A DNA stretch of 64,000 nt from an archaeon (GTDB lineage: Archaea; Thermoproteota; Nitrososphaeria; Nitrososphaerales; Gagatemarchaeaceae), in the NCBI GenBank assembly GCA_021819035.1, contig JAKASL010000001.1, positions 62,001 through 126,000 of the forward strand, read 5' to 3'. A model generated the notes under the pieces. It was not told where the DNA came from. It did no database searches and saw nothing but the letters and a program-made list of their open reading frames with translations. Positions 1,101 through 62,394 of this stretch are shown here, piece after piece (positions within the stretch are counted from its first letter, which is position 1; each line of letters opens with the position of its first letter). A program made the position numbers and the translations under genes.

Positions 1101-1859
1101 CTAGGTCACCCTCGTCCCGTCCGTGAGGAATATGTCCGCCCTCTCTAGGCTCAGCGACCTCGACGAGAGCACTGGCCCGAACTGGAAAGCCTTGCTCCGG
1201 TTGATGGGCTGACCCCCCACCAGCCTGTTGAACGGGGGCATCACAGTCAGCTTTCCCTTGCCCTTCAACTTCGACCTGTAGCCCGCCCCCTCCATCAGCT
1301 CGGCTACGTCGAATTCCGCGGTGACCCAGACAGACTCCCTCGTCCTCGACCCGAACGAGTCGCGCATCTCGTAGGTGAAGTGCGAGTGGCCGATTACCAG
1401 GTTCCTCGTCGCAATCGCTGCCTCCGACGGCCAGGCGTGGCCGTGCGCCACCCCGACCCTGTCCTTCCCCTCCCCCAGCACCGTCCCCTGCGACGGATCC
1501 AGCTTGACCCGGGGCGGGAGCACCGTCTTGATGTTGCCGTCGTGGTTTCCGGGGACCACCTCCACTGCCTCGAACAGGTCCAGCATGGTGTCGAAGAACC
1601 AGGGTATCACCCCCCAGTCTATGTCTTCCACCTTCCCGACCGTGTGCTTGACGTCCCCAAGCACGGCGAGCCGCTTCGCGCCGTAGGTCTCCGCTATTCG
1701 CTTCACCCGTTCCACCATCTTCACCGAATAGGCCGGGAGGCGGAACCCCTTCTTCGCCATCTCCTTCTCGAGCCCAAGATGCAGGTCTGAGACCAGAAGG
1801 GTCTTCGACTCGGCGGTCGAGAAGATGAGTGCCGCGTCGCCGGGGACTATCTTGAGCAA
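1101..1859 (-). CDS. Calcineurin-like metallophosphoesterase (COG1407-like)
   Basis: Predicted two-metal phosphoesterase of 252 aa. The signature blocks appear in order: SDLHLGLE, LGDVKH, PGNHD, AHGHAWP and GHSHF. Together they supply the Asp/His/Asn metal ligands of the calcineurin fold. It is the last gene of a minus-strand run helicase - unknown - phosphoesterase, with a 1 bp gap to the upstream gene. This phosphoesterase family is often encoded beside Lhr-type helicases in archaea, so a nucleic-acid processing role is reasonable but inferred. The exact substrate is unknown. Confidence 0.85.
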   Translation of the reverse strand: MLKIVPGDAALIFSTAESKTLLVSDLHLGLEKEMAKKGFRLPAYSVKMVERVKRIAETYGAKRLAVLGDVKHTVGKVEDIDWGVIPWFFDTMLDLFEAVEVVPGNHDGNIKTVLPPRVKLDPSQGTVLGEGKDRVGVAHGHAWPSEAAIATRNLVIGHSHFTYEMRDSFGSRTRESVWVTAEFDVAELMEGAGYRSKLKGKGKLTVMPPFNRLVGGQPINRSKAFQFGPVLSSRSLSLERADIFLTDGTRVT

Positions 1860-1860
1860 G

Positions 1861-2544
1861 CTAGGCGACGAGCGGGAGCACCTGGGCGTCGACGAAGCCC
1901 TTGAACTCGGACAGCTCCATCTTGCTGAAGCCGGTGAGTATGCAGTTCCTGGTCAGCCCGAACACGTAGCCGTAAGCCTTGCTCTTGAAGACTATGTACC
2001 ACAGTTTCCCATGGGTCAAATAGTCACTGTAAAGGCTGGTGTTGCCGAGCTCGGCGCCGTAGAGCGAAAGCTTGGTGATGTTCGGCAGGTCCACTTCCGA
2101 ATAGAATATCACCTTGGTGTCCTCGAAGTTGGCTTCGTGGAACTTCCTCAGGGTCTCGGGGTCGATCCTGGCTTCCACCACTTGCCCGAGGCTCATGAAC
2201 ACCGCCTTGCTCATCTCGTTCGCGATGTTGTTCGCCCTGCTCTTCTTGTCGTAGACCGTCAGGAACATCCTGTCCTTGTGCATGCTGAAGGTGAAGGGGG
2301 CTTCGTATGTCCGCGGGACCGGGACAGGCTCCCCTCGGTGCGGGACCACGAAGACCGAGTCGAAGGAGAACTTGCCCTCCAGGGACCCCTTCCCCACGCT
2401 CAGGTCGGTGATTTCAGATACAAGCTTGAACTCCTTGTCTTCGACGCTCGTCTCAGTCTCTATCCTGAACGACTTCAGCTTGTCAGCCAGCGTGTCGAGC
2501 TCGTAGTTCTCCCTCACGAGGAAGACCTTCCCTGCTAGAACCAA
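1861..2544 (-). CDS. Conserved-looking protein of unknown function between a helicase and a phosphoesterase
   Basis: A 227-residue soluble protein beginning at a TTG (TTG GTT CTA GCA). I do not recognise a domain. It looks like an alpha/beta protein with regular hydrophobic strands and no signal peptide, membrane segment or cysteine cluster. A single Cys lies in LTRNCILTG. It sits 36 bp downstream of the Lhr-type helicase and 1 bp upstream of the metallophosphoesterase, so it is almost certainly co-transcribed. A role as accessory factor to either enzyme is only a guess from position. Confidence 0.7.
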   Translation of the reverse strand: MVLAGKVFLVRENYELDTLADKLKSFRIETETSVEDKEFKLVSEITDLSVGKGSLEGKFSFDSVFVVPHRGEPVPVPRTYEAPFTFSMHKDRMFLTVYDKKSRANNIANEMSKAVFMSLGQVVEARIDPETLRKFHEANFEDTKVIFYSEVDLPNITKLSLYGAELGNTSLYSDYLTHGKLWYIVFKSKAYGYVFGLTRNCILTGFSKMELSEFKGFVDAQVLPLVA

Positions 2545-2580: not shown

Positions 2581-5424
2581 TCAGTTGCCCCAGTACTGCC
2601 TGGTGGTGACGAAGCGTATCTTTGCCTCGAGCAGGTCCCCGTAGAACGCCTCTTCGTCGTCGTGCATCTCAGCCAGAATCCTGGATGCGGTCTGGGGCCC
2701 TATCCCGTAGACCGTCTGTGCAACCACGGCTTTCTTCCCATATGAGAGGACGAGGTCAGCCCCCCTCCTGGCCCTGGCCAGCTCGGACCTCTCTTCGTCG
2801 TTGAGCTGCGCCTTCATCTCTCTCTTTTTTACGAGGTCGGTCAGCTTGGCTGTCCCCCAGTAGCAGGGCACCAGCAACCCCGAGCCGCAGGCGCGGCATC
2901 GCGGCTCCTCCGGGATGTCTCCGACCGTGGTCTGCCCCTGGTCCGCGCCGCACTTCACACATAGGAGGCTCACCTCGGTGCCGAATATGCTCGTCTTCAT
3001 CCTCTGGTATGACGACCTGCCGAGGGAGTCGGGGGCGACCGCCTCCGGGACCTCAAGGTACCTGTAGAGGAGGTTGTACGCGATGGGGGTCGGCCTGTCT
3101 CCCGCCTGATAGGTCTCCACCGCTATCCCCCCGTTGGCGACCTCCACCAGGATCTGCTTCCCCCTTTCAATGTCGATGAGGTCTCTCCCTGTCTCATGCA
3201 ACGCCTCCTCGAAGATGGGGGTCTTCTCGAACCTCGTCGGGAGCGAGCACAGGTTCGGGTGTGCGATGAGCTTCCCCCGTTTCAGGGCGCCGAACCGCTC
3301 TGCCACGAACTTTACCCTGGCCGGGAACGGGAAGTTCCTCTGGGCGGCCACCGCGTAGGTCCTTTCCAGCTGTTCCGGAGTCAGCCCCATCAGCTCCTTC
3401 GCCATCTCCTTGATGTCGAGCTCCTCGGTGTCCGTCGTGAGCTCCATCAGCAGCCGATAGCCGTCGAGCCACCAGACCCTGACCAGCCCCCGCCTCGAAA
3501 GCACTTCCTCGAACACGTAGGCGAACGTCCGGTTCACCGACTCTCCGAAGCAGAGGTGGACGATTAGGTACTTCCCGAACCCTTCGAAGAGTATCAGCTT
3601 GTCCGACGGTACCGGTGCTCCCATCTTCTTGTGTTCGGCGATCTGGTCGACCACCAGCGCCCGAGCAGCCGCCTCTCCGGGAATCTTCTTCTCGACCGAC
3701 TCCATGGCCTCGTTCCCCCGGTCGAGGGCTTCTGAAATCTCCCTCCTCAACCGCCCTGTCTCGGCCGCAAGTTCGTATGGTATCGGCAGCATCTCCCCGT
3801 CCCACCCCGGCACGGCAGCAAGGGGGTCCTCGACGGGGGTGACGTAGATCTTCCTGTCGTCAGCTATCTGCTCTATCTGCCAGACCTTGCCCTTGATGAT
3901 GAAATGGACTCCCACCTTCGCCCTGAGGAGAACGAACTCCTCGCCGAGTATCCCGACGGTCTGGTTGGTGGAGACGTCGACCACCAGGTAACGGGTCTCG
4001 TCCGGGATCATGGATAGGTTCTCGTAGTAGTATTCCCGGGTGAGCCTCGTCCTCACGAGTGTCTTGCCGCCGAATCTAATCTTCCTGAGCTCGGAGAGAT
4101 AGCTCGCCGTGCGGAGGAACGCGTCCTCAGTCAGGCCCTTGAACGGGGCTGCCTTCCTGATCTCGGCCAGCATCCTGCCTGGCTCCATGGCCTCGAAGTC
4201 CATGAGGTAGCCTGCGATCTGGTGCGCTAGCACGTCCAGGGAGTTCACGTAGGGACGGGTCGGTTCAATCCTCCCCCTGCTCGCCGAGTTTATGCCGGCC
4301 GACGACTCCAGTATGTCGTCCGCCGACACGGTCACCAGGACCCCCTTCGACACCTTTCCGAGCCTGTGGCCGCTCCTGCCGACGCGCTGGACCAGGCTTG
4401 TCACCTGCCTCGGAGACATGTACTGCACCACCAGGTCGACCGAGCCGACGTCTATGCCAAGTTCCAGGGTGCTGGTGCAGACGAGCGCCTTCAGTTCGCC
4501 AGACTTGAATGCCTGTTCGACCCTTTCTCGCTCCTCCCTTGGAAGTGAGCCGTGGTGTACCCCTACGTCGCTCCTCAGCCTCGCGAACTTCTCGCCCATC
4601 ATCTCGGCCAGGGTCCTGCTGTTGACGAAAATCAGGGTCGATGTGTGCCCGTCGATCAGGGAGTTCATCCTGGAGAGCCTTGCCGCGAGGTCGGGAGCGG
4701 AGTACGTCTCCTTCGCGGCTGACTGGCTCGACGGACCAGGGACAGGGTATTCGATGGCGTATGAGAACTCCTTGGGGGCGTCCGCCTTTACCAGAGTCCT
4801 AGGCCGGTCCCCGAAGAGGAAGGCGGCTGCTACATCGGGGGTCCCAATCGTAGCAGAGAGCGCGACGAGCTGGAAGTCAGGCGAGACCTTCCTGAGCCGC
4901 TGAAGACCCACACAGAGCTGGACCCCACGTTTGCTCTCTACAAGGTTATGCAGCTCGTCGACGACGACGGCCTTCAGGTGGGAGAGGTTCTCCCTCATCC
5001 TTCTTCCGGGGAGGACGGCCTGAAGGGTCTCGGGCGTCGTTACCAACACATCAGGAGGGTGCGCCGATTGCCTCGTCCTCTGCGCCTGGGGGGTGTCGCC
5101 GTGCCTTATGTCCACCGTCAGCCCGAGCTTCGTGCACCATCCCTGGAGCCTCTTCAGTATGTCCCTGTTCAGGGCTCTCATCGGCGTGATATAGAGGAGA
5201 GAGATGCCCTCCCCGTGCCCTTCGCGCACCAGCCTGCTCAGCAGCGGGAGGAGGGCCGCTTCGGTCTTCCCCGACCCGGTCGGGGCCACCACCAGTACAT
5301 CCTCCCCTCTGGCGATGAGTGGCCACGCCTTCACCTGCGGGGGGGTCGGGTCCCTAATGTCGGTGTCAGCCAGAAACCCCCTCACAGCCGGCGCAAGTGA
5401 CTCGAACGCTGTCTCGTTGGGCAA
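2581..5424 (-). CDS. Lhr-family superfamily 2 ATP-dependent helicase (first paralogue)
   Basis: About 947 aa. Motif I APTGSGKTE is near residue 47, the DExH box is VVDELHN, motif III is LSAT, and motif VI is QRVGRSGHR, followed by the Lhr-core region. A CVKC...CRAC four-cysteine site near the C-terminus could bind zinc. Lhr helicases unwind DNA or RNA-DNA hybrids and are linked to repair in archaea. I chose the TTG at 5424 (MPNETAFESLAP...) because it aligns with the start of the second paralogue (MIPNQNAFQLLSP...) and because GATTTAAGG at 5448-5456 is about 27 bp upstream. The open frame continues to 5589, but that extension would overlap the divergent SMC-like gene. Confidence 0.93.
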   Translation of the reverse strand: MPNETAFESLAPAVRGFLADTDIRDPTPPQVKAWPLIARGEDVLVVAPTGSGKTEAALLPLLSRLVREGHGEGISLLYITPMRALNRDILKRLQGWCTKLGLTVDIRHGDTPQAQRTRQSAHPPDVLVTTPETLQAVLPGRRMRENLSHLKAVVVDELHNLVESKRGVQLCVGLQRLRKVSPDFQLVALSATIGTPDVAAAFLFGDRPRTLVKADAPKEFSYAIEYPVPGPSSQSAAKETYSAPDLAARLSRMNSLIDGHTSTLIFVNSRTLAEMMGEKFARLRSDVGVHHGSLPREERERVEQAFKSGELKALVCTSTLELGIDVGSVDLVVQYMSPRQVTSLVQRVGRSGHRLGKVSKGVLVTVSADDILESSAGINSASRGRIEPTRPYVNSLDVLAHQIAGYLMDFEAMEPGRMLAEIRKAAPFKGLTEDAFLRTASYLSELRKIRFGGKTLVRTRLTREYYYENLSMIPDETRYLVVDVSTNQTVGILGEEFVLLRAKVGVHFIIKGKVWQIEQIADDRKIYVTPVEDPLAAVPGWDGEMLPIPYELAAETGRLRREISEALDRGNEAMESVEKKIPGEAAARALVVDQIAEHKKMGAPVPSDKLILFEGFGKYLIVHLCFGESVNRTFAYVFEEVLSRRGLVRVWWLDGYRLLMELTTDTEELDIKEMAKELMGLTPEQLERTYAVAAQRNFPFPARVKFVAERFGALKRGKLIAHPNLCSLPTRFEKTPIFEEALHETGRDLIDIERGKQILVEVANGGIAVETYQAGDRPTPIAYNLLYRYLEVPEAVAPDSLGRSSYQRMKTSIFGTEVSLLCVKCGADQGQTTVGDIPEEPRCRACGSGLLVPCYWGTAKLTDLVKKREMKAQLNDEERSELARARRGADLVLSYGKKAVVAQTVYGIGPQTASRILAEMHDDEEAFYGDLLEAKIRFVTTRQYWGN

Positions 5425-5447
5425 ACACCTTCCGGAGGGCTCCCGCC

Positions 5448-5456
5448 GATTTAAGG
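5448..5456 (-). promoter_or_regulatory. TATA box of the first Lhr-type helicase
   Basis: GATTTAAGG on the plus strand reads CCTTAAATC on the minus strand. It is centred about 27 bp upstream of the TTG at 5424, predicting a leaderless transcript. The divergent SMC-like gene has a weaker AT-rich candidate, GAATATC around 5484-5490, about 27 bp before its ATG. Confidence 0.5.
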
Positions 5457-5514
5457 AGTAGCGAGAGAGAGGTGGCCGAAAGTGAATATCGACTTCGCGG
5501 TCAGCAATGTCTAA

Positions 5515-7551
5515 ATGCGCCCAGGGTTCGCGCAGCCTGTAAGCTTGTCCAGCGGCGTCAAAGAGGTCTCCCAGGAGAGGCCGTCCCATCTCACGACCGT
5601 CAAGGAGATCATCCTTGAGAACTTCATGAGTTACGAATATGCCAGGATCCCCCTCCGTGAAGGGCTGAACCTGATAGTCGGTCCCAACGGGGCAGGCAAG
5701 TCCTCGGTGCTCCTGGCGATTTCAGTCGCCTTGGGCCAGGCATACACCGAGCGCTCCCGGAAGCTCTCGGACCTCATCCGAAGGGGCAAAGAGATAGCCC
5801 GGGTCTCCCTCGTCTTTGACAACTCCGCGAAGGCAGGCCACAGACCGATACCATATTCGAAGTCCGACACCTTCATGCTGAGCCGCTACCTCAGGCGTGA
5901 CGGTTCCTACTGGTTCGAGGCAGATTACAAGGAGATCGATAAGAGCGAAGTGGTCAGGCTGCTCCGCGAGTTCGGCATCAACCCCGACAACCTGCTGATC
6001 ATAATGCACCAGGGGATGATCGAAGAGCTGGGCGCCGTCACCCCCCAGGAAAGGCTGAGGATGGTCGAGGAAGCGGTCGGATTCTCGGCGTACAGGCAAA
6101 GGATTCTGCTCGCCGAACAGGAGCTAAGCGGCCTCGTCGGGGAGGAGAGCTCACTCCTTCAGCTGATTGACAACGCCAACCAGGCGCTGGAATACTGGAA
6201 GCAGGTGTACGACCGCTATCAGGAGAAGAGGAAGCAGGTCGAGCACAGAGACCTCCTTTCTAAGGAGCTCCTGTGGAGCACTGAAGCCAAGCTGAGCAAA
6301 GCGCTCCAGGGAGCGGAGGAGAAGATCACGTCGAAGACTAGGGCGCTGGAGGATCTGAAGTCCCAGCAGGCCGAGGTGACGGCCGACGCCGAGCAGACGC
6401 ACCAGACCCTGCTCGACAAACAGGTCGAGCTCAGGAAGCTGTACTACGCGCTCATAAGGGCGGAGTCAGAGAAGGCAAAGGACGAATCGGCAAGGGATGC
6501 CTATCGTTCTATAAAGGATGACATGGCGGGGCTCTCGAGCACCATAGACGAGCTCTTGGCCAGGGGCGGGGACAAGAGCGGGAAGAGGCTGAAGGACCTG
6601 GCCGAATACGTCGAAAAAAAGGGGGAGGCCGCAGAAGAAGACGCGAAGCGCAGGAAGGGGGAGCTCGACAGGGAAGTGTCTTCGCTTCAGCCGGAGATCA
6701 CCAGGACCGAGGAGCTGATTAAACGGGCCATTGACAGCTACATCTCGTTCAGGGTGAAGGCGGAGGTACTGACATACAGGATCAGGGTGACCGAGTCAGA
6801 CCTTCACGACCTCGAGCGGAGCGCCAAGGAATACAGGTCCGAGCTGGACAAGCTCGTGCCCGACCTGGAGAACGCAGGTGCAAGGATGGAGACCGTCAGG
6901 CAGCCCTACGAAGTGTCAGAGGAACTGAAGCTGGTCTCGGCCCACATCCAGAAGATGCAGGACGTCCCGGACGACGCTGAGAAGATCTACAACGACTACT
7001 CCGGGAACATCGAGGAGCTCAAGGTCAAGCTTGCCAAACTCCAGGAAAACAAGAAGTCGATGCTCGTGGAGCTCGGGTCGCGCAAGGAAGTCTGGAAGAA
7101 GGCGATGGAGGACCTTGTAGAGGCGGTGGACCCAGCTTACCAGGCGGTGCTCTCGGCCGCCGACGCCAGCGGGTTCATCAAGCTCGAGCAGGCCGACGCC
7201 ATAGAAGATGCCGGGTTCGACCTCTACGTGGGGTTCCGAGGCGGCGCGCCCTCCACTCTCGACCCGTTCACACAGAGCGGAGGCGAACGGTCGGTGGCGC
7301 TGATGGCGTTCCTCCTGTCGCTGCAGGCGAGGATCGTCTCTCCCCTGCGGGCGCTCGACGAGTTCGACATACACATGGACCCCAAGAACAGGGAGGCCAT
7401 GTTCAAGATGATACTCTCTCAGATGAAGCAGAGGGAGGCGTCACAGTACATCGTGATAACCCCCTCCATCCTCACCGTCTTCGACAAGAGCGCCCACGTC
7501 ATAACTGTCCAGGCAGTGCACGGCGGGTCAGAGGTCAAGGAGCTGAAGTGA
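5515..7551 (+). CDS. SMC-superfamily ATPase, Smc5/Smc6-like, without hinge or zinc hook
   Basis: A 678-residue chromosome-structure ATPase. The N-terminal head has Walker A GPNGAGKS at residues 56-63 and a Q-loop-like LLIIMHQGMIEE near 160. About 350 residues of charged coiled coil follow, and then the C-terminal head with signature SGGERS (588-593) and Walker B LRALDEFD (Asp615-Glu616). The tail around DEFDIHMDPKNRE recalls Smc6 (LDEFDVYMD) and Smc5 (MDPRNER). The protein has no cysteine, so no Rad50 zinc hook. The arms look too short for a folded SMC hinge. It is first in a three-gene operon with adjacent or overlapping stops and starts. The start at 5515 is fairly secure. The complex assignment is inference. 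Confidence 0.88.
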   Translation: MRPGFAQPVSLSSGVKEVSQERPSHLTTVKEIILENFMSYEYARIPLREGLNLIVGPNGAGKSSVLLAISVALGQAYTERSRKLSDLIRRGKEIARVSLVFDNSAKAGHRPIPYSKSDTFMLSRYLRRDGSYWFEADYKEIDKSEVVRLLREFGINPDNLLIIMHQGMIEELGAVTPQERLRMVEEAVGFSAYRQRILLAEQELSGLVGEESSLLQLIDNANQALEYWKQVYDRYQEKRKQVEHRDLLSKELLWSTEAKLSKALQGAEEKITSKTRALEDLKSQQAEVTADAEQTHQTLLDKQVELRKLYYALIRAESEKAKDESARDAYRSIKDDMAGLSSTIDELLARGGDKSGKRLKDLAEYVEKKGEAAEEDAKRRKGELDREVSSLQPEITRTEELIKRAIDSYISFRVKAEVLTYRIRVTESDLHDLERSAKEYRSELDKLVPDLENAGARMETVRQPYEVSEELKLVSAHIQKMQDVPDDAEKIYNDYSGNIEELKVKLAKLQENKKSMLVELGSRKEVWKKAMEDLVEAVDPAYQAVLSAADASGFIKLEQADAIEDAGFDLYVGFRGGAPSTLDPFTQSGGERSVALMAFLLSLQARIVSPLRALDEFDIHMDPKNREAMFKMILSQMKQREASQYIVITPSILTVFDKSAHVITVQAVHGGSEVKELK

Positions 7552-8310
7552 GTGGAACAGACGAAGCTCGACGACTATCTGAGGGTGATAGAGCTCTGCC
7601 GTGACGTGGAGACGAGCAGCGCCAACCCCTTCGACGTAGACATCAGGGAGAAGATACTGCTCCTGAAGCAGCGCCTTCCCGAGCTGAAGTTCCTCGATGA
7701 GTTGCTCGTCGACTCGGAAGCGATGCTCGAGCTCGCCCAGATAGTGAAGCTCCAGGACCAGTGGCTTAAGCAGAGGGCCAGCGCCCTCTACATAGACCCG
7801 CTGCTCATCCAACTGAAGCTGAAGCTACTCCACAAGGAGACCCTTTCGGAGGCGTTCGTGAAGAGCTGGCACCCGATCGCCCAGGTGGACCAGCTGTCCT
7901 CCCGCGGGCTCGAGAAGGCCTTCGTCTACTGGCGCGAGCTGACCCCCATGTCGGAGCGCTTCAAGAACCAGTTCGGCACATACGGGATCATCCCCGGGGT
8001 CGTGGAATATTCGGACCTGGTCAGCCTCGGCGTCTTCACCGCGGAAGAGTTTGAACTCGGCCTGAGCCGCCTCTACGACGAGCTTCTTCAAAAGTCAAAC
8101 GGCGAATGGTTGGACTACCGCCAGTTCATAGAGGGCGAAAGCTATGGGACCAAGGTCAGGAGGGCGTACCTGCTCGCCTTCCTCATAAGCGAGGGGAGGG
8201 CGCTGCTGAAGACGGAGCCCCTCACCGGGAAGATCTGGACGATGGCGCTTGCCGAGAGGGTAAAGGGGACCCCGAAGTCGGTGGCCATCTCGATAACGGG
8301 GGACAGCTGA
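7552..8310 (+). CDS. Unrecognised SMC-operon protein, kleisin candidate by position
   Basis: A 252-residue, mostly helical, acidic/leucine-rich protein. It starts with a GTG directly after the SMC-like stop (TGA-GTG) and ends with a TGATG overlap into the next gene, so the three products are probably made in fixed ratio. I see no clear family motif. In bacterial Smc-ScpA-ScpB and eukaryotic Smc5/6-Nse4-Nse1/3 complexes, a helical kleisin is encoded with or bound by the KITE proteins. This gene occupies that slot. Low sequence conservation is normal for kleisins, but this assignment rests on context only. Confidence 0.75.
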   Translation: MEQTKLDDYLRVIELCRDVETSSANPFDVDIREKILLLKQRLPELKFLDELLVDSEAMLELAQIVKLQDQWLKQRASALYIDPLLIQLKLKLLHKETLSEAFVKSWHPIAQVDQLSSRGLEKAFVYWRELTPMSERFKNQFGTYGIIPGVVEYSDLVSLGVFTAEEFELGLSRLYDELLQKSNGEWLDYRQFIEGESYGTKVRRAYLLAFLISEGRALLKTEPLTGKIWTMALAERVKGTPKSVAISITGDS

Positions 8311-8870
8311 TGGAGCCAGAGACCGCAGACAGGGCGCTGCTGGAGAGGAAGGTGAGGAGGGCATTCCAAGTACTCGTCCTTCAGCGCGGGCGGAATCCGG
8401 GGGTCAAGGGGTGGGAGATGAGGAGGCACCTGGGCCGCGAGTACCGGAAGATAATCGGAGTCCTCTCTGAAGACGTGGCGCCGATGGGGCTAGAGGTGTT
8501 CGAGGTAAAGGGGCCGGACGGCACCGACGACTCGTCGCGGTTCCTTCTGAGGTTCAAAGAGCCGCCGACGATCAGCGAAGCGGAGACGTCGGGGATACGC
8601 ATCGATGACCTTGCCGTCCTCGCGGCCAGCATCGCCTTCGTCAACTCAAAGTCAGGGCGCGTCTCCCGGCGCGAGGTCGAGCAGTTCCTCCGCGAAAAGT
8701 TCCCGAAGTGGCGCGTAGACTACTCCCTGGACAGGTACGTCAAGAGGGGGTACCTCGACCAAGACGACAAGGGGATGCTGCACATAGGGTGGAGGACCCG
8801 GGCCGAAGTCGACGAGAAGACCCTGATGACCCTGATTCTTTCGCGCGCTCAGGAAGCAGCGAAGAAGTAG
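8310..8870 (+). CDS. Tandem winged-helix KITE protein, Nse3/MAGE-like
   Basis: 186 aa starting at ATG 8310, which overlaps the upstream TGA; the upstream open frame is not used. Two winged-helix-like halves are apparent. Residues about 15-75 contain GWEMRRHLGREYRKI. Residues about 95-170 contain SRREVEQFLREKFP, then YVKRGYLDQDDKG, then HIGWRTRAEVD. The second half has the layout of the MAGE/Nse3 domain, in which a helix is followed by K-YL, a beta wing and a W-x-x-R-A-x-x-E motif. KITE proteins bridge SMC heads and kleisin and often bind DNA. Its 3' end overlaps the convergent helicase gene by 22 bp. Confidence 0.78.
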   Translation: MEPETADRALLERKVRRAFQVLVLQRGRNPGVKGWEMRRHLGREYRKIIGVLSEDVAPMGLEVFEVKGPDGTDDSSRFLLRFKEPPTISEAETSGIRIDDLAVLAASIAFVNSKSGRVSRREVEQFLREKFPKWRVDYSLDRYVKRGYLDQDDKGMLHIGWRTRAEVDEKTLMTLILSRAQEAAKK

Positions 8871-11719
8871 CGCCTGCGGAGCGCTTCCCTCTCGCCCTCT
8901 ATCGCCAGCTCGATCACGTCCCTCCCTTCCTTCCTCATCTTCGCGGCCAGGGCCGAGGCGTCGGCCAGCCTGATGCCCCTCCCGGCGACCAGTATGTCAA
9001 CGGCGTGGCCGTACTCGGCCCTAAGTTCGGCCGACTTCCTGAGCGACTCCACCAGCTTCTGCTTGCTTCCACGGAGGTCCGACCTGCTCCTCGCTTTCAT
9101 CGCGAGGGAGAAGACGTTCTCGTAGGAGTCGGTCGAGAGCCCGATGGCGGCCTTGCCGCATGCGAGACATCTGTTGAGCCCCTCCAGGTCGACGACCTTC
9201 CTGAGTTCGAGGAAGTTCCAGCAGTTGGTGCAGACTACGACCAAGAACGTCTCGTTGATCCTGGCCCTCGTGGACTGCTTGAGAAGAGCCCTGAGCCTCT
9301 CGGGAGAGACGATCTCCCCCCTCCTGCTGATCTCTTCGACCCCGATGCGCGCTATGGGGGTGAGTGCTTCGTACTCCACCAGCTTGACCTCGATGGCCCC
9401 GGCATGGATCTTTTCGACCACGTCAGACGCCCCTGCCAGGTCGAAGTCGTCGTGGAAGATCACGCTCATCGCCTCTTCGTAGACCGGGGTGTCTCTGAGC
9501 GCCTCGATGATCCCTGAAATCGAGACGCTGGCGTAGTCCGCATCTTTGGCTATGGCACCGCATTTTTTCCCTGCGTGTATCAGCCTCCGCTTGAAGATCC
9601 CGCTCCTCTCTACAGCCTTTTCGGTCGCCACTATCAGATCGAGCTTGTGGAGTTCCTCGATGACCGAGAGCGCCATGGCGGGCGAAACGTCGGCTTCTAT
9701 GACTATCCGATAGGGGTCCTGGTGCACCGCCACCGACTGTCCAATCCTCTCCGAGACGATGTGCCCGATGACCCTGGCGAGCAGCCTATTCACCCGATGA
9801 CCAAAGGCGGCCTGAATCACCAGGAACCTGTCCCACTTCTCGATGGTGATCAGCCTCTCAGAAGGTATGGGTAGCTTCGCCTCGTACTGCTCGGCCACTT
9901 CTTTCAGTGACTCTTCGAGGACCGCCCGGGAGACCGGGTATGTACGTACCAGCTCGTCTAGGTACTTTGATTCGGTCCCCTTTGAGAGCTCCTCGGCGTA
10001 CCTCCTCCTCACTGCGCCAACTTCGGCGGCGACCTCCCTTGGGACGGGTATCTCGTCCCCGACCCAGTTCGGGACGGCTCCGGTGGGGTCTTCTTCAGCC
10101 TTAACGTAGACCTTGTTTCCATAGATCTGCTCCACCTTCCAGCACCTCCCCGCCTCGACGAACTTCACTCCGACCTCCCCGTATTCCGAGACGAAGGCCT
10201 CGTCCAGGGTGCCGACGAAGTTGTCACCTTCGATGACCAGATACTGCTTCTCGTCAGGGATCATCGAAAGGTTGTCGAAGTAGTAGGAGAAGAGAGGCTT
10301 GACGTCCCGGGCCCGGAACACCTTCCCGTCAGACTCGCTGTAAAATGCGAGCCTCGGATACCTTTCCCTCATGTACACGAGGACCTTCTTCAGTCTCTCG
10401 GCGTCCAGGTCTGCGTAGGCGTAGCTCCGCCTGAAGAGCGCTATCAGGTCGTCGAAGTTCCAGCTCGTCTGCTCGATGAGGAGCCCGGCCACCTGGTGTA
10501 TCGCGACGTCGTAGGGGTTGAAGACCGGCTCGAGGGGCTCAAGCTCTCCCATGACAGACTTGCGGCAAAGGACCGCCGCTTCGAGAGTGTCGTCCGAGTC
10601 CTGGGTGATGACGAGACCGTTGGAGACCTGCCCGATCCTGTGTCCGCTCCTCCCTACCCGCTGGATCAGCCTCGTGACCTGCCTGGGGGAGTTGTACTGC
10701 ACCACGTATTCCAGAAACCCGATGTCTATGCCGAGCTCGAGGCTGCTCGTGCAGATCACCCCGAGCAGTTTGCCTTCCTTGAGGCCCTTCTCGACCGCCT
10801 CCCGGGTCGCCTTCGAAAGGGAGCTGTGGTGCACCGCGATGGGGAAGCTGGGGTCCCATACCCTGAAGCGGCTCGACAGGGCCTCTGCCTCCGACCTCGT
10901 GTTGGTGAAGACTAGCACCGACCTGTACTTCTCAACAAGCTCCCTCACCGTCCTGAGCCTCGCAGCGACCTCCGGATAGGAGTAGATCGAGTCCGCGAGT
11001 ATCTTGTCGTCCCCGGTCGCTCTGGGGGCGTCTACCCTCAGGGAGAGGCTCTTCTCTACCGGGACCCGCACCACCTCGCACTTTCTCCCGCTCCCCACCA
11101 AGAACTGTGCCACCTTCTCAGGGGACCCGACCGTCGCGGACAGGCCGACCACCTGGAGTTCCTTCTCCGCCACGTCCCGGAGCCTTTCGAGTCCCACACT
11201 GAGCTGGCTCCCTCTCTTGTCTTCTGACAGCTCGTGGGCCTCGTCCACCACGACCCATCTCAGCTTTGCCAGGTTCTGCCTTATCCTCCTGCCGACCAGC
11301 AGGATTTGTAGCGTCTCAGGGGTAGTGATGAGTATGTCCGGCGGAGCTAAGCTCAGATTGGTCCTCTCAGCCTGGGAGCTGTCTCCATGCCTGACCCCGA
11401 GCCTGATGTCGAAGCGCTTGCACCACCACTGCATCCTGTCAAGCATGTCCCTGTTCAGCGCCCTGAGCGGGGTGATGTAGAGCAACTTGGTCCCCTTCTC
11501 TCTCGGTTCGCCCTCCCTGACCATGGCGTCCAGGATCGGTAAGAGGGCGGCTTCGGTCTTGCCGGTCCCGGTCGGAGCCATCAGGAGGGCATTCTTCCCC
11601 TCCCTCACGATGGGGAGGAGCATTTCCTGAGGGTCGGTGGGGGAGTCGAAGCCGCGCTCTTTCAGCGCAGCCACCAGCGGCGGCGAAAGGAGCTGGAAGG
11701 CGTTCTGGTTCGGAATCAT
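8849..11719 (-). CDS. Lhr-family superfamily 2 ATP-dependent helicase (second paralogue)
   Basis: 956 aa, about the same length and architecture as the first paralogue. Motif I is MAPTGTGKTE near residue 51, the box is VVDEAHE (DEAH rather than DELH), then LSAT, motif VI QRVGRSGHR, the Lhr-core region, and a C-terminal CTNC...CLAC four-cysteine site. The ATG start gives MIPNQNAFQLL. Archaea commonly carry two or more Lhr subfamilies, so the two genes need not be redundant. The unusual feature is their position on both sides of an SMC operon. The substrate (DNA repair or RNA) cannot be decided from sequence. Confidence 0.93.
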   Translation of the reverse strand: MIPNQNAFQLLSPPLVAALKERGFDSPTDPQEMLLPIVREGKNALLMAPTGTGKTEAALLPILDAMVREGEPREKGTKLLYITPLRALNRDMLDRMQWWCKRFDIRLGVRHGDSSQAERTNLSLAPPDILITTPETLQILLVGRRIRQNLAKLRWVVVDEAHELSEDKRGSQLSVGLERLRDVAEKELQVVGLSATVGSPEKVAQFLVGSGRKCEVVRVPVEKSLSLRVDAPRATGDDKILADSIYSYPEVAARLRTVRELVEKYRSVLVFTNTRSEAEALSSRFRVWDPSFPIAVHHSSLSKATREAVEKGLKEGKLLGVICTSSLELGIDIGFLEYVVQYNSPRQVTRLIQRVGRSGHRIGQVSNGLVITQDSDDTLEAAVLCRKSVMGELEPLEPVFNPYDVAIHQVAGLLIEQTSWNFDDLIALFRRSYAYADLDAERLKKVLVYMRERYPRLAFYSESDGKVFRARDVKPLFSYYFDNLSMIPDEKQYLVIEGDNFVGTLDEAFVSEYGEVGVKFVEAGRCWKVEQIYGNKVYVKAEEDPTGAVPNWVGDEIPVPREVAAEVGAVRRRYAEELSKGTESKYLDELVRTYPVSRAVLEESLKEVAEQYEAKLPIPSERLITIEKWDRFLVIQAAFGHRVNRLLARVIGHIVSERIGQSVAVHQDPYRIVIEADVSPAMALSVIEELHKLDLIVATEKAVERSGIFKRRLIHAGKKCGAIAKDADYASVSISGIIEALRDTPVYEEAMSVIFHDDFDLAGASDVVEKIHAGAIEVKLVEYEALTPIARIGVEEISRRGEIVSPERLRALLKQSTRARINETFLVVVCTNCWNFLELRKVVDLEGLNRCLACGKAAIGLSTDSYENVFSLAMKARSRSDLRGSKQKLVESLRKSAELRAEYGHAVDILVAGRGIRLADASALAAKMRKEGRDVIELAIEGEREALRRRYFFAAS

Positions 11720-61926: not shown

Positions 61927-62394
61927 CTACTGGTAAGGACCATTTTCCAGCCCCCCCTCGCTGAACCGAGCCATGGCGTTGAGGGTTGCTTCGCGATACC
62001 CCTGCTTCTCGGCGAGCGACCTGGCGATGTCGCCCGTCGTGATTATCCCGACCAGAGTCCCAACTTGATCGACGACAACGAGTCGTCTCACGCGATACCT
62101 GGCCATCAATTCGGCCGCACCGGTCAGGGAAGAACTGGGACTGATGGTGATCAGCGGCGTAGACATGATATCGCGCACGAGCACTTTCTTCCCATCTATC
62201 GATTCTGCGAGCACCTTGGAAACGAGGTCTCGTTCGGTCACAATCCCGATGGCCGAGCCGCTCTGCGTGATGACAGCGCAGCTGACCCCCTTCTTCGCCA
62301 TCGCCTTGGCGCAGTCAGTAGCGCTGACGTTTAGCTCGATCGCCATCACCGTCTGCGACATCGCCTTCGCGACAGTAGGTTCTTCCATGGTCAT
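61927..62394 (-). CDS. Tandem CBS-domain protein
   Basis: 155 aa with two CBS motifs (about 5-65 and 75-135). The first is seen as AVITQSGSAIGIVTERDLVSKVL and the second as RLVVVDQVGTLVGIITTGDIARSLA. CBS pairs bind adenine nucleotides and act as energy or ligand sensors. The start at ATG 62394 (MTMEEPTVAKAM...) fits a TATA-like GATATAGAG (62418-62426) about 28 bp upstream, and the frame extends to 62409. It converges with the Hsp20 gene 2 bp away. Partner unknown. Confidence 0.9.
   Translation of the reverse strand: MTMEEPTVAKAMSQTVMAIELNVSATDCAKAMAKKGVSCAVITQSGSAIGIVTERDLVSKVLAESIDGKKVLVRDIMSTPLITISPSSSLTGAAELMARYRVRRLVVVDQVGTLVGIITTGDIARSLAEKQGYREATLNAMARFSEGGLENGPYQ

Follow-up and report, generated by a model that had tools for sequence, protein, structure and literature searches.

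A Predicted Hinge-Less SMC-Kleisin-KITE Complex of Archaea as a Probable Sister of Eukaryotic Smc5/6

Introduction

Smc5/6 is the least understood of the eukaryotic SMC complexes, and its origin, an old question, becomes testable in archaea with the gene set described here. We analysed a stretch of 64,000 nucleotides (hereafter the window; positions 62,001 to 126,000 of contig JAKASL010000001.1) from an archaeon of the Gagatemarchaeaceae, in the class Nitrososphaeria. The window carries three consecutive genes for an SMC-superfamily ATPase, a kleisin and a KITE (tandem winged-helix) protein. As judged from their sequences, these genes very probably (about 0.85) encode an archaeal SMC-kleisin-KITE complex, whose family would be the sister group of eukaryotic Smc5/6. 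Each subunit, taken independently and read from its sequence, points to Smc5/6. An initial annotation of the stretch had proposed a translationally coupled operon, with the order of ATPase, kleisin slot and KITE known from Smc-ScpA-ScpB. The coupling is borne out by reading frames that abut or overlap and by a gene order kept in 56 of 80 loci, and the host's own Smc-ScpA-ScpB genes are ordered likewise.

The ATPase and Its Head Phylogeny

Pfam assigns the window ATPase to SMC_N (5e-36), and together with NCBIfam it returns generic SMC/AAA ATPase domains only. When a profile of 39 homologues is compared with all PDB chains, Smc6 (3.5e-53) and Smc5 (4e-48) rank first, with SMC2 (3.6e-40) and bacterial Smc (4e-39) lower in the same ranking. 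The motifs of the C-terminal head are of the same kind: TQSGGER is a hallmark of Smc5, DEFD..MD is Smc6-like, and ITP occurs as in both Smc5 and Smc6. The initial annotation had described head motifs that mix Smc5 and Smc6 features, namely SGGERS and LDEFDIHMDPKNRE, and both are present in the translation.

The head phylogeny places the ATPase with Smc5/6 and not with Rad50/SbcC. The maximum likelihood tree was built on concatenated N- and C-terminal heads (65 sequences, 385 columns), with canonical SMC, SMC1-4, Smc5, Smc6 and Rad50 as comparison groups; ASRP and RecN, the latter scoring merely 22 bits for the ATPase, were left out. Smc6 and human Smc5 heads were taken from PDB alignments, those of yeast Smc5 and SMC1-4 were checked against PDB chains, which they matched with bit scores close to identity, and three of seven Rad50-like sequences were excluded because their P-loop was unmatched by the head-extraction pattern. 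The archaeal family, Smc5 and Smc6 form one clade, supported at 99.6 by the Shimodaira-Hasegawa-like approximate likelihood ratio test and at 100 by ultrafast bootstrap, which stands apart from canonical SMC, SMC1-4 and Rad50. Under the model LG+C20+F+G4, the approximately unbiased (AU) test rejected three other placements of the family, namely together with canonical SMC, together with Rad50 and outside SMC1-6 as a whole (p=0.004 each). Within the clade, the tree fits Smc5/6 either as sister to the archaeal family or as nested inside it.

A two-SMC heterodimer of the Smc5/6 type is not seen, as the host genome and nearly all surveyed genomes hold one family ATPase gene, and the only other long SMC of the host is its canonical Smc. 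One genome (G009, contigs C15 and C11) carries two copies, 98% and 89% identical to the window's; its contamination is 8%, and the second copy probably reflects mixed strains rather than duplication.

The Missing Hinge

None of 39 family ATPases matches the Pfam SMC_hinge model, which detects the hinge of the host canonical Smc, our positive control, at 3.2e-18. This agrees with the initial annotation, to which the ATPase appeared hinge-less. Where a hinge would be expected there is a variable arm tip, in which the share of the majority residue is 0.26, against 0.76 in the N-terminal head, 0.60 in the N-terminal neck and 0.57 in the C-terminal neck; the gap share of the tip is also 0.26. The ATPase neck around residues 206-258 contains three invariant positions, W228, E251 and W254. 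The ATPases of Methanomethylicia, at 582-591 amino acids, are without most of this tip. Since canonical SMC proteins and eukaryotic Smc5/6 both carry hinges, the simplest reading is that the hinge was lost in the archaeal ATPase lineage. The family is also without a zinc hook, because CxxC was found in 0/39 members; the window protein, with its 678 residues, is cysteine-free, as had been noted at the outset together with the absence of a Rad50 hook.

The Kleisin and KITE Partners

The middle gene had been taken for an unrecognised helical protein, and in this the initial annotation has to be revised. Searched alone against Pfam and NCBIfam, the window kleisin and KITE sequences give nothing significant. 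At the level of families, the kleisin profile ranks yeast Nse4 (1.7e-4) first among PDB sequences, ahead of human EID3 (2.4e-4), an Nse4 paralogue, and finds ScpA weakly (0.15). Individually, 24 of 35 kleisin family members match Pfam Nse4_C, the best at 3.5e-7. The AlphaFold2 model has a predicted local distance difference test score (pLDDT) of 71 and a predicted template modelling score of 0.36, and its reliable parts are the N-terminal helices and the C-terminal winged helix. With this model, the best ten Foldseek matches are all kleisins; Nse4 comes first, and the others include Rad21, ScpA-C, another Nse4, Brn1 and Scc1-C. Profile, Pfam and monomer fold matches thus support a kleisin closest to Nse4 in the slot where a kleisin had been expected.

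The third gene had been described as a tandem winged-helix protein resembling Nse3/MAGE, a description that the AlphaFold2 monomer fold, Foldseek and Pfam MAGE all support. The model (pLDDT 84.5) consists of two winged helices. Its top PDB matches by Foldseek are MAGE-G1/NSE1 (2.2e-6) and two chains of the Nse1-Nse3-Nse4 complex, with template modelling scores of 0.66 and 0.65; 7dg2_C (3.7e-6) has a score of 0.66. MAGE-A4, MukE, Nse1/3/4 chains and JetB rank below these, and ScpB comes 27th. Pfam MAGE is matched by 3/35 members of the KITE family, at best with 3.6e-4. The protein has no RING domain, because its 186 residues include no cysteine.

Conservation and Co-Inheritance

Full-length ATPase homologues (61-98% identity) occur in nearly all members of the host's genus and family and in several families of its order. 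A prokaryote-wide scan, in which each species was represented by a single genome, extends the family, down to about 40% identity, to Thaumarchaeota/Nitrososphaeria, Hecatellales, Bathyarchaeota and Methanomethylicia, and also to Methanophagales (ANME-1), to metagenome-assembled genomes (MAGs) labelled Methanosarcinales, and to Syntrophoarchaeum. We compared 80 ATPase loci from other genomes. In 56 of them, homologues of both partners lie behind the ATPase in unchanged order, and these loci reach down to about 35% identity; here, the gap between ATPase and kleisin has a median of 0 nt and that between kleisin and KITE a median of -4 nt, with an overlap in 45/56. The operon is kept in relatives and well beyond Nitrososphaeria, being found in Bathyarchaeota, Methanomethylicia, Hecatellales and one ANME-1 genome. 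One of the 56, a Hecatellales locus (L060, 4136-10254), has about 2.7 kb between the ATPase and the kleisin-KITE pair.

The partners also travel together where they are not neighbours. A solitary ATPase gene was seen in 13 loci of Halobacteriota, from MAGs of ANME-1 and Syntrophoarchaeum and from those labelled Methanosarcinales. Of 12 such genomes that were searched, 11 hold adjacent kleisin and KITE genes, distant from the ATPase except in one (L075). Across 250 genomes of the phylum, the ATPase and the kleisin were each found in 110 and the KITE was found in 109; ATPase and kleisin occur together in 109 (Fisher 1e-69) and all three in 108. Co-inheritance without linkage argues for one complex. 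In one family of the host's order (f10), essentially complete genomes lack ATPase, kleisin and KITE as well as the 227-residue neighbour gene described below, a clean joint loss of all four.

Alternative Readings

The three genes could derive from canonical archaeal Smc-ScpAB by loss of the hinge, with no special kinship to Smc5/6. The shared gene order speaks for such an origin, and the best NCBIfam family for the ATPase is SMC_prok_A, but at 169 bits against a cut-off of 729 bits. The tree and the AU test set the ATPase apart from canonical SMC and SMC1-4, and for its partners Nse4 and MAGE are better matches than ScpA and ScpB, neither of which is listed in Pfam scans of the kleisin and KITE families. 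The profiles of both families likewise showed no similarity to the host's ScpA and ScpB in hhalign, but the test is weak, as one side of the comparison was a single sequence. We regard this origin as improbable. The host has its canonical complex in any case: Smc (1,259-1,304 amino acids) lies in one overlapping operon with ScpA and ScpB (L105, 480-5449; C1:33979-38949). ScpB is clear and ScpA very divergent, below the Pfam cut-off; a scan of the host genome with PF02616 (ScpA) gave no match, and the gene between Smc and ScpB is this divergent ScpA. ScpB sits in the Smc-ScpA operon here, although archaeal ScpB has been reported often to be unlinked or not to bind ScpA.

An anti-plasmid or anti-phage defence system, such as a Wadjet- or Lamassu-like SMC complex, is equally improbable. 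The return of JetB and MukE in the KITE fold search would suit it, as would the modest matches of the ATPase to many PADLOC ATPase models (best mad3, 103 bits). However, kleisin and KITE match no PADLOC model, and no JetD- or LmuA-type nuclease gene was recognised in the operon. The set is vertical, near-universal in some lineages and stable in its neighbourhood, unlike patchy defence islands. Viral contigs, when searched, yielded generic P-loop relatives only and no member of the ATPase family.

Least likely is a protein of the Rad50 or ASRP (coalescin/Sph) type, which has a comparable size (about 600-700 amino acids) and the general head similarity seen in NCBIfam scores for ASRP (47.5 bits) and Rad50 profiles (43-68 bits), but which is contradicted by an ASRP cut-off of 300 bits that is not reached, by the rejected Rad50 grouping (AU p=0.004; ASRP outside the tree), by the absence of CxxC from a family that would have to carry the zinc hook defining Rad50 and, according to PMC9389158, nearly all ASRPs, by a partner operon where that paper describes ASRPs without consensus flanking genes, and by a separate host gene for Rad50. 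The latter encodes 724 amino acids with a CPVC hook, and all seven Rad50-like proteins compared have CPxC in mid-protein. When the class was searched for ASRPs, a single locus (L128) turned up, below the threshold and with a CPTC hook; it was left out of the tree because its P-loop was unmatched by the extraction pattern. As the host encodes both Smc-ScpA-ScpB and Rad50, the new complex is additional to both.

We therefore return to an SMC-kleisin-KITE complex whose family is sister to Smc5/6. Several points weigh against it. The tree has 385 columns, includes just eight sequences from eukaryotes and shows Smc5 and Smc6 on long branches, and the kleisin structure model is only moderately confident. 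What is known of the assembly comes from the genes, that is, from coupling and co-occurrence, and the predicted structures are those of two single partner subunits. Every family member seen belongs to an uncultured lineage, and a repair role is based on relatives and gene neighbours, not on phenotype. The wider claim, that archaea carry a widespread hinge-less SMC-kleisin-KITE machine which shares an exclusive ancestor with Smc5/6 and was inherited as a whole three-subunit complex, we hold to be reasonably likely, with less assurance than the sister relationship itself. The initial annotation had spoken of a minimal Smc5/6-like complex. The kinship of each subunit stands, while "sister family of Smc5/6" is a better description than "minimal", given the lack of a hinge, a single ATPase gene in place of two, a KITE without RING, and an operon in which Nse2, Nse5 and Nse6 were not seen (no genome-wide search for Nse2 was made).

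Gene Layout and Neighbouring Genes

The features are collected in Table 1. The KITE start codon and the kleisin stop codon have one base in common. For the ATPase there is an alternative in-frame TTG start at 5545, where many homologues begin. The automatic open reading frame call from 8106 is an upstream extension of the third gene.

Table 1. Positions in the window of the three operon genes, their motifs and domains, and the neighbouring genes.
Feature	Position	Strand	Remarks
SMC-superfamily ATPase, Smc5/6-like, hinge-less, 678 aa	5515..7551	+	ATG start; stop TGA 7549-7551
Walker A GPNGAGKS (residues 56-63)	5680..5703	+	translation; alignment of 39 homologues
Variable arm tip (residues 319-385), where a hinge would be	6469..6669	+	conservation in alignment; no SMC_hinge match in 39 members
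ABC signature SGGERS within Smc5-type TQSGGER (residues 588-593)	7276..7293	+	alignment; same motif in yeast Smc5
Walker B / D-loop LDEFDIHMDPKNRE (residues 614-627), Smc6-type DEFD..MD	7354..7395	+	alignments
Kleisin, Nse4-like, 252 aa	7552..8310	+	GTG start directly after ATPase TGA; stop TGA 8308-8310
Kleisin N-terminal helical domain (residues 1-79), presumed SMC neck-binding	7552..7788	+	AlphaFold2 helices 2-21, 31-44, 48-79; weak ScpA N-domain profile match, E 0.15
Kleisin C-terminal winged helix (residues 153-232), presumed SMC head-binding	8008..8247	+	AlphaFold2 pLDDT mostly 72-91; aligns to ScpA-C and Nse4-C
KITE (tandem winged-helix), MAGE/Nse3-Nse1-like, 186 aa	8310..8870	+	ATG start
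Conserved uncharacterised protein, ~227 aa, candidate associated factor	1861..2544	-	near operon in 36/80 loci
Second Lhr-type helicase, divergent neighbour	2581..5589	-	Pfam WH_Lhr, DEAD_assoc
Lhr-type helicase, convergent neighbour	8849..11719	-	Pfam WH_Lhr, DEAD_assoc
Calcineurin-like phosphoesterase, adjoins 227-aa gene and Lhr	1101..1859	-	

The gene for the 227-residue protein lies less than 5 kb upstream of the operon, on the opposite strand, in loci from several lineages. The protein is found, even unlinked, in 96/109 operon genomes and in 8 others (Fisher 3e-43), and is 43-99% identical to its homologues across archaeal lineages; it has no match in PDB or NCBIfam. Seven operon-less genomes of one family (f42) carry diverged homologues (E 1e-15 to 1e-30). 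The helicase cluster stands beside the operon in 42/80 loci, including those of Methanomethylicia and other lineages, and a homologous phosphoesterase gene recurs in about 25 of the 80. Lhr helicases are linked to DNA repair, and their pairing with a calcineurin-like phosphoesterase is reminiscent of bacterial DNA-repair clusters. As gene context, the Lhr helicases suggest a role of the complex in repair or recombination.

Proposed Mechanism and Significance

Two copies of the ATPase, presumed to form a homodimer, would engage head-to-head on ATP. The kleisin would form an asymmetric bridge between them, its helical N-terminal domain sitting on the neck of one copy and its C-terminal winged helix on the head of the other. 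KITE subunits attached to its middle segment (about residues 106-153) may help to hold double-stranded DNA clamped onto the engaged heads, on the pattern of Smc5/6-Nse1/3/4. With no hinge, the ring might be closed by heads and kleisin, or by contacts between the short arms (about 110-150 residues each way). The missing hinge and short arms make a local DNA clamp likelier than a long-armed loop extruder. The complex would most likely act on replication or recombination intermediates, alongside the Lhr helicases and the conserved protein of about 230 residues, and would leave bulk chromosome organisation to the separate canonical Smc-ScpAB.

If the exclusive common ancestor is real, Smc5/6 would stem from an archaeal lineage that was distinct from the ancestors of condensin and cohesin before eukaryotes arose. 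SMC function would then be possible without a hinge, and the protein of about 230 residues would perhaps be a new fourth factor. Because the hinge is absent, the complex can be used to test whether SMC activities such as DNA clamping, topological entrapment and loop extrusion depend on it, and its three compact proteins are suited to expression and structure solving. Wells et al. (2017, PMC5228436) left open whether Smc5/6 gained and lost HAWK subunits or is a branch distinct from cohesin and condensin. The distinct-branch answer is supported by the archaeal findings, because a co-inherited set of ATPase, kleisin and KITE is closest to Smc5/6 in every subunit.

Comparison with Known Systems

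PMC9389158 uses, and PMC10003631 mentions, an "SMC5/6-related" clade of archaeal SMC proteins that is attributed to Yoshinaga and Inagaki 2021. Like our family, it consists of archaeal ATPase heads that group with Smc5 and Smc6. The window ATPase family very probably belongs to it, as matched by description and not by sequences, so that the kinship of the ATPase with Smc5/6 is probably already known. The accessible part of PMC9389158 gives no information on kleisin, KITE, operon or hinge for this clade. In open full-text literature, a scope outside which preprints and most subscription papers fall, neither the operon and its kleisin and KITE products, nor the missing hinge, nor the conserved protein of about 230 residues was found described, and the complex as a whole appears to be new. 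It has been argued that archaeal Smc complexes work generally without KITE subunits (PMC7055376); in contrast, the KITE gene is kept here in nearly every ATPase-bearing genome.

With the ASRPs (coalescin ClsN, Sph) the family has in common an archaeal SMC-related ATPase of about 600-700 amino acids. PMC9389158 gives ASRPs a zinc hook and no conserved partner operon, and the archaeal Smc5/6-like family is the reverse. Its likeness to Smc-ScpA-ScpB lies in the order of ATPase, kleisin and KITE genes. However, canonical Smc has about 1,200 amino acids, a hinge detectable by Pfam and another head clade, and ScpA and ScpB are not partners of the Nse4 and Nse3 type. The family comes close to eukaryotic Smc5/6 by its place in the head tree, by its head motifs (the TQSGGER of Smc5 and the DEFD..MD of Smc6), by an Nse4-type kleisin and by a KITE of the MAGE/Nse3 type. 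Where eukaryotes have two ATPase genes, the archaeal complex has one, presumed to act as a homodimer with short arms and no hinge, and its single KITE gene, presumably also giving a homodimer, encodes a protein without a RING domain.

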